Shown here: positions 10,104 to 12,227 of the stretch, piece after piece | Position numbering within the stretch: position 1 is the stretch's first letter | Layout: each line of letters opens with the position of its first letter | DNA from: Rhodococcus phenolicus | GTDB taxonomy: Bacteria > Actinomycetota > Actinomycetes > Mycobacteriales > Mycobacteriaceae | Direction of reading: 5' to 3' | NCBI RefSeq assembly: GCF_001646785.1 | Contig: NZ_LRRH01000054.1 | Location: 1-52,293, forward strand | Length of the DNA stretch: 52,293 nucleotides | Position numbers and translations under genes: made by a program | Notes under the pieces: generated by a model | What the model saw: the letters and a program-made list of their open reading frames with translations, nothing else | Told to the model about the DNA's origin: nothing | The model's database searches: none

Positions 10104-10770
10104 AAACGAGCCCTCACGCTCGACGAGCTTGAGGTGCTCCGCCGGCACGTGAGGTTGTGGGGGTCCGGAGCACCGATCGGGGACGACGGCGCGCAGCACA
10201 CCGGACGGCCACGCGCCCGTGGACTGCTGGACCTCGTCGACGTCCTGCTCGCCACCGGTGCCCGCATCGGCGAGGTTCTGACGCTGCACTGGCCGAACGT
10301 CGACCTCGCCACGGAACCGGCCACGTTGACGATCTCGGGGACCGTGGTGCGGTTGCCGGGGCGCATGGCCGACGGTGGCGGCCTGGTTCGTCAGGGACGA
10401 ACGAAGACGGACGCGGGGTATCGGGTGGGTGTAGCTCCCCCGGTTCGCTCGGGACACGCTGCTGCGGCTGTCAGTGGACGCCAAGCCCAAGGCGAACGAT
10501 CTGGTCTCTCCGTCGTCGTCCGATACGTTGCGGGAACCGCACAATGTCCGGCGGCAGTGGCGGGGCGCTCGGAGTGAGCGGTTCCGTGGGTCACCCCGCA
10601 CCGCGTCCGGCGGACGGTGGCGACGCTGATCGATCGGGAATCGTCGACCGAGGATGCCGCAAACCAGCTCGGGCACAGCGGCACCGCGGTGACCCGGAAG
10701 CATTACATCGAGAAAGCCGCGGCCGCCCCGAATCTGACCGGCGTGCTCGACCAGCTGGGCACGTCATGGA
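10104..10770 (+). pseudogene. Degenerate tyrosine recombinase (integrase) remnant
   Basis: The catalytic domain is recognisable in pieces over different frames. Frame 3 (about 10113-10430) has LTLDELEVLRRHV and ATGARIGEVLTLHW, the box-I Arg region. A second frame (about 10437-10585) reads LPRFARDTLLRLSVDAKP and NVRRQWRGAR. Frame 3 resumes at about 10589 with WVTPHRVRRTVATLI (His-x-x-Arg) and LGHSGTAVTRKHYI (catalytic His and Tyr). The N-terminal DNA-binding part is missing, there is no start codon, and at least two frameshifts are needed. It once served to integrate a mobile element; it should be inactive now. The exact left end is uncertain. Confidence 0.8.
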
Positions 10771-10797
10771 ACGACCCCCGCTCTGGACGGGGGTCGT
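10771..10797 (-). terminator. Terminator of the RelA-domain/small-protein operon
   Basis: Perfect 10-bp stem acgacccccg / cgggggtcgt with a 7-nt loop. It starts 5 bases after the stop of the small gene on the minus strand, so it most likely ends that operon; it would also stop any rightward transcript from the integrase remnant. Confidence 0.7.
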
Positions 10798-10802
10798 CTG
10801 CA

Positions 10803-11030
10803 TCAGGCGTTTGCGGCCAGTTCCCGGCCCTGAAAGTACCTGGAGTGCGTGCGGCGAAGCGTCTCGATGGAGTCGCTGACCAGCGAGACAATCTCCACAT
10901 CTGTGTCTGTTCGAGTCTTCTCGAGCTCCAACCGCCGACGCATAGCAGCACGTCGTCCCTCGACGCCGGGGAACGACGTAACCGTCCGGTCGGCAGTCTT
11001 CCGGTTGTACTCAATCACAAAAGCTGTCAC
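10803..11030 (-). CDS. Small protein overlapping the RelA-domain gene (antitoxin candidate)
   Basis: A 75-residue soluble, highly charged protein (starts MTAFVIEYNRKTADRTV; Arg/Glu-rich middle GRRAAMRRRLELEKTR; acidic helix VEIVSLVSDSIETL). Its GTG start overlaps the TGA stop of the RelA/SpoT-domain gene (GTGA), so the two are translationally coupled. I do not recognise the family. Size, overlap and context (island with integrase remnant and tRNA genes) match the antitoxin partner of a toxic small alarmone synthetase, but it could equally be an accessory or regulatory subunit. It is followed at once by a terminator, so the operon holds only these two genes. Confidence 0.6.
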   Translation of the reverse strand: MTAFVIEYNRKTADRTVTSFPGVEGRRAAMRRRLELEKTRTDTDVEIVSLVSDSIETLRRTHSRYFQGRELAANA

Positions 11031-11845
11031 TGTCTCGTCCCCTTCCGCAATGCGTCTCGAAACAGCACCTCTACATCATCGAGCATAGTAGAGAGCTCAG
11101 CCTCGTCTTCCAGTACCTTGTACCCGATCTCACGAAGCTCATCGGGAAGCTCTTCCAGACTCTGCCAGACATAGCCAGAATTCGGGCGTATCTCGGCGAT
11201 CGCGTCCTTAGCCTCCTCGATCGGGCGGATCCGTGTCACCGAGATTTCCTGGAGTCGCGACGCGATCGCACTCCAACTGTCAGATTCCGTCACGTTGTCA
11301 TACCTGATCCCTCGACCAGCCAAGTCGCCCAACCGTTCGTATGTGTTTGCCCATTTGCTCTGCAACTGCGTACGAACCTGAACTTCCGCCATCGCGCGCC
11401 GAAGCTTCAGATGGACGTGGACGGCGCGGTAGCCGTTGTGATGCTCAACCCGTAGATCTTTTACTGCTTTCGCGGGGTCCATCCCGAAGGCCCGAGCAAT
11501 GGCGGCAGCAACTGCGTCTTGCTCACGCAACGTCATCTCTGCATCAACCCGAACACCGGCGATATCGACGATGTTGTTCAGAGGCCCCGAGGAGAGGCGG
11601 TTGAGTTTGTCGCGGAGCGTGTCGATCGTCTTCGCTCGGTACGTTATGTCCACTTCGGAATGGGAATAAGGCAGGATCGTCTTCCACGGCATGGCCTGGA
11701 CGATGCCGTGAACCTCAGCCGCCAGCTCGTCGTACCAGATCATGACATCGTCGTAGGCGGGGGTTCCCTCCGGCGACGCGACATCGTCACGGAGGCACTG
11801 AGCCAACATCTCCATCTGCTTGTTGGACCATGGCCGGTCTTGCAA
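11027..11845 (-). CDS. RelA/SpoT-domain alarmone synthetase-like protein (toxSAS candidate)
   Basis: A 272-residue protein with a single RelA/SpoT nucleotidyltransferase domain and no HD hydrolase, TGS or ACT domain. Visible synthetase marks: TYRAKTIDTLRDKL (about 68-81), IVDIAGVRV with the metal-binding Asp about 94, HNGYRAVHVHL (about 136-146, the G-loop Tyr) and AEVQVRTQLQSKWA (about 153-166) with the catalytic Glu. The His usual after the last motif is replaced (NTYERLGD). Start is TTG, preceded by AAGGCAGGA. Such proteins transfer pyrophosphate to GTP/GDP or, in toxSAS toxins, make ppApp or modify tRNA CCA ends. The tight overlap with a tiny gene inside a worn island favours a toxin-antitoxin role; a housekeeping small alarmone synthetase is the alternative. 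Confidence 0.75.
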   Translation of the reverse strand: MQDRPWSNKQMEMLAQCLRDDVASPEGTPAYDDVMIWYDELAAEVHGIVQAMPWKTILPYSHSEVDITYRAKTIDTLRDKLNRLSSGPLNNIVDIAGVRVDAEMTLREQDAVAAAIARAFGMDPAKAVKDLRVEHHNGYRAVHVHLKLRRAMAEVQVRTQLQSKWANTYERLGDLAGRGIRYDNVTESDSWSAIASRLQEISVTRIRPIEEAKDAIAEIRPNSGYVWQSLEELPDELREIGYKVLEDEAELSTMLDDVEVLFRDALRKGTRQ

Positions 11846-11973
11846 GATTCGTCCTGCCTTCGTGGAGTCGCGTAGACCGCCTCTCGCGGAGTGAAGATAC
11901 CCACAAGATGCCGCTGCATCCCGCCAAGCAATCGTGTCGATTCCGTGTCGTCGCGACCCGGCAACGGTTGACG

Positions 11974-12015
11974 AGAAAGCCTCTCACCTGCATTACTGCT
12001 GGTGAGAGGCTTTCT
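11974..12015 (-). terminator. Terminator downstream of tRNA-Arg
   Basis: Perfect 15-bp stem agaaagcctctcacc (11974-11988) / ggtgagaggctttct (12001-12015) with a 12-nt loop, ending 5 bases from the tRNA 3' end on the minus strand. It closes the tRNA-Ser/tRNA-Arg transcript. Confidence 0.75.
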
Positions 12016-12019
12016 GCTG

Positions 12020-12092
12020 TGCGCCCGAAGGGATTCGAACCCCTAACCTTCTGATCCGTAGTCAGATGCTCTATCCGTTGAGCTACGGGCGC
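12020..12092 (-). tRNA. tRNA-Arg (anticodon ACG)
   Basis: The minus strand folds into a full cloverleaf: acceptor GCGCCCG with its complement, D arm AGCTCAACGGATAGAGC, anticodon stem TCTGA/TCAGA around loop CTACGGA (ACG, read as ICG), and T arm GGGGTTCGAATCCCT. Discriminator A; CCA is not encoded. Confidence 0.95.
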
Positions 12093-12135
12093 ATAACTGT
12101 ATTCATTTGTTCCGCCGGTGAACCATACACCAACG

Positions 12136-12227
12136 TGGCGGAGGCGAGAGGATTTGAACCTCCGGTCCCCTGTAAGGGGGACAACTCATTAGCAGTGAGT
12201 CCCATTCGGCCGCTCTGGCACGCCTCC
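12136..12227 (-). tRNA. tRNA-Ser (anticodon GCT)
   Basis: The minus strand gives acceptor GGAGGCG/CGCCTCC, anticodon stem ACTCA/TGAGT around CTGCTAA (GCT), a long class-II variable arm (TCCCC/GGGGA type) and T arm GGAGGTTCAAATCCTC. Discriminator G; the 3' CCA is encoded (12138-12136). Probably co-transcribed with tRNA-Arg 43 bases downstream. Confidence 0.95.

Follow-up and report, generated by a model that had tools for sequence, protein, structure and literature searches.

A probable PhRel:ATphRel-type toxin-antitoxin pair beside a tRNA-Arg gene on the chromosome of Rhodococcus phenolicus

Among the toxic small alarmone synthetases (toxSAS), members of the PhRel, PhRel2, CapRel and FaRel2 subfamilies are reported to pyrophosphorylate the CCA ends of tRNA with ATP as the donor (PMC11559606), and to be inhibited at the donor site (PMC11782079). 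The pair gp29:gp30 of mycobacteriophage Phrann, a PhRel toxin with its antitoxin ATphRel, gives defence against other phages, and its proposed action is that infection separates the two proteins (PMC9262239). Unfused CapRels have been described in actinobacteria (PMC9712102). Here we analyse a stretch of 52,293 nucleotides from Rhodococcus phenolicus (contig NZ_LRRH01000054.1; hereafter the window), which carries an operon of two genes for proteins of 272 and 75 aa, called toxin and antitoxin below. The pair is very probably a chromosomal member of the PhRel:ATphRel family, acting by the mechanism set out below, and the operon most likely represents one more copy of an already described system, not a novel one. 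Direct support comes from the gene anatomy, the homology of both genes, the donor-site signature, the linkage of the two genes, their patchy presence at an integration site and purifying selection.

Against Pfam, the toxin matches RelA_SpoT (PF04607) at 1.1e-12, with 48.6 bits against a cut-off of 27. This is the sole family above its cut-off, and the protein has a RelA/SpoT synthetase domain without a hydrolase domain. The catalytic Asp94 and the motif EVQVRT (residues 154-159) are kept, as a sequence-only reading made earlier by a model had stated. The ATP donor-site signature is intact (R70, K72, T76, K80, R83, D94, G97, R99, E154 and Q156), and the G-loop carries Y139. The donor-site residues align with those of CapRel and are invariant, T76 nearly so, across 37 aligned sequences, an alignment without seven of the 34 toxins found in GTDB (L024, L033, L037, L047, L049, L052 and L053, whose matched stretches are split or short). 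The nearest characterised relative is Phrann gp29 (45% identity over 73% of the query, 2e-41), and the assignment to PhRel and not to an unfused CapRel rests on this match, the tree having contained one CapRel reference and no unfused one. When the toxin sequence by itself was run against PDB sequences, two growth-factor matches ranked above Rel; these were spurious and were not used.

The antitoxin has no match in Pfam or NCBIfam, and the sequence-only reading took it for a protein of no recognised family, perhaps an undescribed antitoxin family. This has to be revised, as the protein matches phrog_22117 in PHROGs at 2.4e-24 and Phrann gp30 (ATphRel) with 55% identity at 7e-9, and the best PDB fold match of its model is ATfaRel2. 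Models of the single proteins, which that reading had proposed as a check, reached a predicted local distance difference test score (pLDDT) of 91 for the toxin and 92.5 for the antitoxin. The predicted antitoxin fold may be that of ATfaRel2 and the CapRel antitoxin domain (pseudo-zinc-finger type), for which the evidence is modest. A motif HxxYF, reading HSRYF, lies at residues 62-66, and His occupies the first position of the YxxY motif in all 43 aligned antitoxins, Phrann gp30 among them; an alignment of the antitoxins included all 34 GTDB loci. Among the matches listed from open-access main texts there was no mention of an HXXY motif, though a figure of some published alignment may already show the His variant; no open-access main text searched mentions toxSAS together with Rhodococcus.

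The four bases GTGA are common to the toxin stop and the antitoxin start, an overlap that the open reading frame (ORF) calls bear out, and AGGAC precedes the TTG start of the toxin gene. The two ORFs lie in different frames and do not form the one polypeptide of a fused CapRel. As in Phrann, the toxin comes first and the small antitoxin second, and both the donor-site signature of the toxin and the HSRYF motif of the antitoxin are the same. The window's pair differs from that of Phrann in being chromosomal and beside a tRNA-Arg gene, in its 4-nt overlap where the Phrann genes are 7 nt apart, and in the diverged C-terminal part of its toxin. In the tree the window's clade adjoins the Phrann clade but does not lie within it (supports 0.89 and 0.98), and its partners are mostly pairs from Micrococcales. 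CapRel-SJ46 shares the donor-site residues, the toxSYNTH fold and a (Y/H)xxYF motif, but is a single fused gene with 17% identity, and its motif reads YPNYF. The spacing of the donor-site block matches FaRel2 by residue number. FaRel2:ATfaRel2 gave no sequence-level match in PDB sequence searches, and the motif of ATfaRel2 is YxxY. One 349-position PADLOC profile of a candidate defence protein, PDC-S33, matches both proteins, the toxin over 8-193 at 3.8e-14 and the antitoxin over 265-329 at 2.4e-4, and looks like a fused form.

These comparisons bear on the kind of toxSAS that is present. A metabolism-targeting enzyme of the FaRel/Tas1 type would make (pp)pApp and drain ATP under the same small antitoxin. 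This is improbable, since the nearest named relative of the toxin, PhRel, is listed as a translation inhibitor, and for the makers of (pp)pApp it is the acceptor site that Tis1-like proteins are described to block (PMC11782079), whereas ATfaRel2, the best fold match of the antitoxin, is associated with blocking of the donor site.

The linkage of the two genes extends well beyond the window. Scanning GTDB with one toxin sequence gave no hits; scanning with the toxin alignment gave 34 toxin relatives among 69 pattern matches. In all 34 loci an antitoxin profile match lies downstream on the same strand (domain E <0.01), which in four Chloroflexi/Dehalococcoidia loci reaches no better than 2e-7 to 2e-6. 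The distance from the toxin stop to the start of the profile match is -56 to +34 nt in 28 of the 34, and 100-285 nt in L033, L047 and L051-L053. In L024 (4086-5195, Microbacterium esteraromaticum), the C-terminal part of the toxin and the antitoxin share one frame and a stop cuts off the toxin N-terminus; this is a natural fusion within an otherwise two-gene branch. The search for the pair in other genomes and phages, likewise proposed by the sequence-only reading, also showed relatives on phages such as Phrann, on plasmids and in a prophage (genome G010). From the antitoxin side, an order-level search that scored at most 14 candidates per genome matched 12 of 397 genomes at 1e-6, the window's own included, and a RelA-type frame lies within 1.5 kb in nine of these.

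Several loci are notable in themselves. The other three, L127, L130 and L131 (genomes G283, G406 and G066), have antitoxin-like frames with HxxYF and no RelA-type toxin within 1.5 kb; the frame of L131 follows an integrase-like gene and that of L130 an ABC-ATPase-like gene, both named by eye. Perhaps these are orphan antitoxins that guard against incoming toxins. Gene 29 of phage Squirty (L007, 2959-3714) equals Phrann gp29 in the N-terminal part of the alignment and then departs from it, and on its sequence may be a truncated toxin without a partner. Squirty gp30, considered as an antitoxin homologue, has 27% identity, was judged non-homologous and was dropped from later alignments. In L004 (Pasteurella phage PMP-GADVASU-IND) the toxin frame is unannotated, and since its place in the tree is among Corynebacterium pairs, the phage may carry a doubtful host label.

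Within the genus, the toxin is present in four of 18 genomes at E 1e-10 (its own included) and the antitoxin in five at 1e-3, the fifth being G001, whose pair is more distantly related and lies at another genomic position. The genes for tRNA-Arg(acg) and tRNA-Ser(gct) adjoin the same aminotransferase-like gene in all 18 (neighbouring genes are named from reading their sequences by eye, from no family search). The pair is not fixed at this site across the genus: it is intact in three genomes (the window's, G005 and G008), while G004 retains the first 20 toxin codons and G003 only the upstream flank. In G012-G015 the next conserved gene, oxidoreductase-like, lies within ~65 bp of the tRNA, and the remaining nine genomes have neither the pair nor this close spacing. 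An intact-looking integrase gene stands at the tRNA site in G016 and G017. G010 carries the pair at a different place, inside a prophage, where head-tail adaptor genes and tail genes flank it and it is on the opposite strand; eight of ten neighbouring proteins match PHROGs, five of these being tail or connector families.

Several observations weigh against the assignment to PhRel:ATphRel. In the fold comparison of the toxin, housekeeping (p)ppGpp synthetases (15.3) and CapRel (14.9) are tied, and the toxin profile ranks RelQ/RelP (9e-8 to 3e-6) above CapRel (4e-4) among PDB sequences. For the antitoxin fold, Foldseek E-values are weak, the best being 0.06 and none reaching 0.001, and Z-scores are all below 8, the CapRel rows (4.5, 4.4) being tied with unrelated ones (4.1); the antitoxin alignment profile, run against PDB sequences, met no antitoxin and only designed proteins, read as chance. 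The first Tyr of YxxY is His in this antitoxin, with the second (Y65) kept. Phrann gp29 itself is described as only 'likely' to pyrophosphorylate tRNA (PMC8832971), and the toxicity and neutralisation of the window's pair are predictions from sequence and family.

The tied fold scores and the profile ranking would suit an ordinary small alarmone synthetase that makes (p)ppGpp, is non-toxic and is encoded with a regulator. This is nevertheless very unlikely. Firstly, the toxin is linked to a homologue of ATphRel. Secondly, its presence in the genus is patchy, and its relatives are found on phages, on plasmids and in a prophage. Thirdly, in the fold alignment its N-terminal stretch pairs with CapRel from residue 3, and with RelQ from residue 28 only. 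Finally, two further RelA_SpoT proteins are encoded elsewhere in the same genome.

Between the window and G005/G008, the synonymous divergence (dS) of the toxin is 0.66-0.68, close to the 0.72-0.81 of the neighbouring gene, and the pair at this site therefore looks shared by descent and not newly acquired; the short antitoxin has a dS of 0.20-0.32, below that of the toxin. The ratio of non-synonymous to synonymous divergence (dN/dS) against the two relatives is 0.14 for the toxin and 0.08-0.12 for the antitoxin, which indicates purifying selection on both genes and, together with the antitoxin downstream in all 34 relatives, argues that the gene pair is not due to chance. A decaying relic without present function would fit the broken integrase next door and the left-flank remnants that are all G003 and G004 retain. 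It is just as improbable as an ordinary alarmone synthetase, given these ratios and the fact that both reading frames run uninterrupted over their whole length in three species. The natural reading is that the pair was cargo of elements integrating at tRNA-Arg(acg), and was probably kept after the element decayed.

As a PhRel:ATphRel system, the pair would work as follows. With ATP as the source, the toxin would most likely attach pyrophosphate to uncharged tRNA at its 3'-CCA end, and with that end modified, aminoacylation and translation would stop. In the resting cell, the antitoxin would most likely bind the toxin and plug its ATP (donor) site with the segment H62-x-x-Y65-F66, the putative counterpart of the YxxY motif in CapRel and ATfaRel2. 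Phage infection would most likely relieve this inhibition, and translation would halt before the phage multiplies. Toxicity, neutralisation, the tRNA substrate and the phage trigger are predicted for the window's pair by analogy with its family. The pair probably came on an element integrating at tRNA-Arg(acg), outlived it and was maintained by selection.

Table 1. Features of the operon and its surroundings in the window
Feature	Position	Strand	Remarks
Toxin gene	11845..11027	-	272 aa, TTG start; very probably PhRel-type toxSAS
Antitoxin gene	11030..10803	-	75 aa, GTG start; very probably ATphRel-type
Hairpin	10770..10798	-	directly past antitoxin stop; -23.3 kcal/mol, z -4.3; without T-run
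Tyrosine integrase remnant	10107..10757	+	C-terminal half, in-frame stop; converges on operon
tRNA-Arg(acg)	12019..12092	-	integration site of region; upstream of operon
tRNA-Ser(gct)	12136..12227	-	
Hairpin after tRNA-Arg	11974..12015	-	inverted repeat; -32.9 kcal/mol, z -9.1

The surroundings (Table 1) agree with the sequence-only reading in its view of a toxSAS-like two-gene operon in a mobile setting, placed between a dead integrase and two tRNA genes. The integrase is broken: compared with the one that G017 has at this tRNA, 408 aa long, it matches residues 184-405 only, with 62% identity. The claim in that reading of a terminator closing the pair holds in part: a strong hairpin is present, but it lacks a T-run, and a terminator scan around the operon gave 0 sites and no consensus terminator. 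The hairpin is the probable end of the transcript. A promoter scan of 10700-12100 found no consensus promoter for the operon, and a second hairpin separates the tRNA-Arg gene from the co-directional toxin gene.

In the stretches searched, no far copy of the tRNA-Arg 3' end rose above 100 shuffles beyond the window's own pair, and none was found in 14 of the other 17 genus genomes. In G008, positions 1295-1331 behind the antitoxin repeat this 3' end with a score of 47, where the highest among 100 shuffles was 25, and in G005 the repeat is weak, barely above shuffles (29 vs 25). G002 (L110, 2251-5727) also carries an insert of 3.4 kb at this tRNA-Arg, flanked on both sides by the tRNA 3' end as a direct repeat that agrees in 34 of 35 nt; by eye, one ORF of the insert resembles a CobW/G3E-type GTPase. 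A defence island at this tRNA is not claimed, ten chosen cargo proteins from four relatives having given two weak rows (2.6e-6 and 1.3e-4), both to one desaturase-annotated model.

Two bolder readings can be proposed, which we consider unlikely. In the first, the stand-alone antitoxins of this branch would use a His-x-x-Tyr-Phe plug in place of YxxY, as a variant lock that could have a different response (e.g., to pH or metal) and mark a separately triggered class. In the second, the pair itself would be a minimal cassette without an integrase, with a copy of the tRNA-Arg 3' end on either side (~1.24 kb in G008), and would depend for its movement on integrases supplied in trans by other elements integrating at this tRNA.

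With its very probable placement in the PhRel:ATphRel family, an unexplained two-gene operon gains a family whose chemistry and phage-defence phenotype are known, and an antitoxin taken to be novel joins a known family. What appears new is the plug motif with His, which does not vary among the stand-alone antitoxins compared, and the retention of the pair at an integration site, where a toxin-antitoxin pair would be chromosomal cargo at a tRNA gene that has probably outlasted its element.
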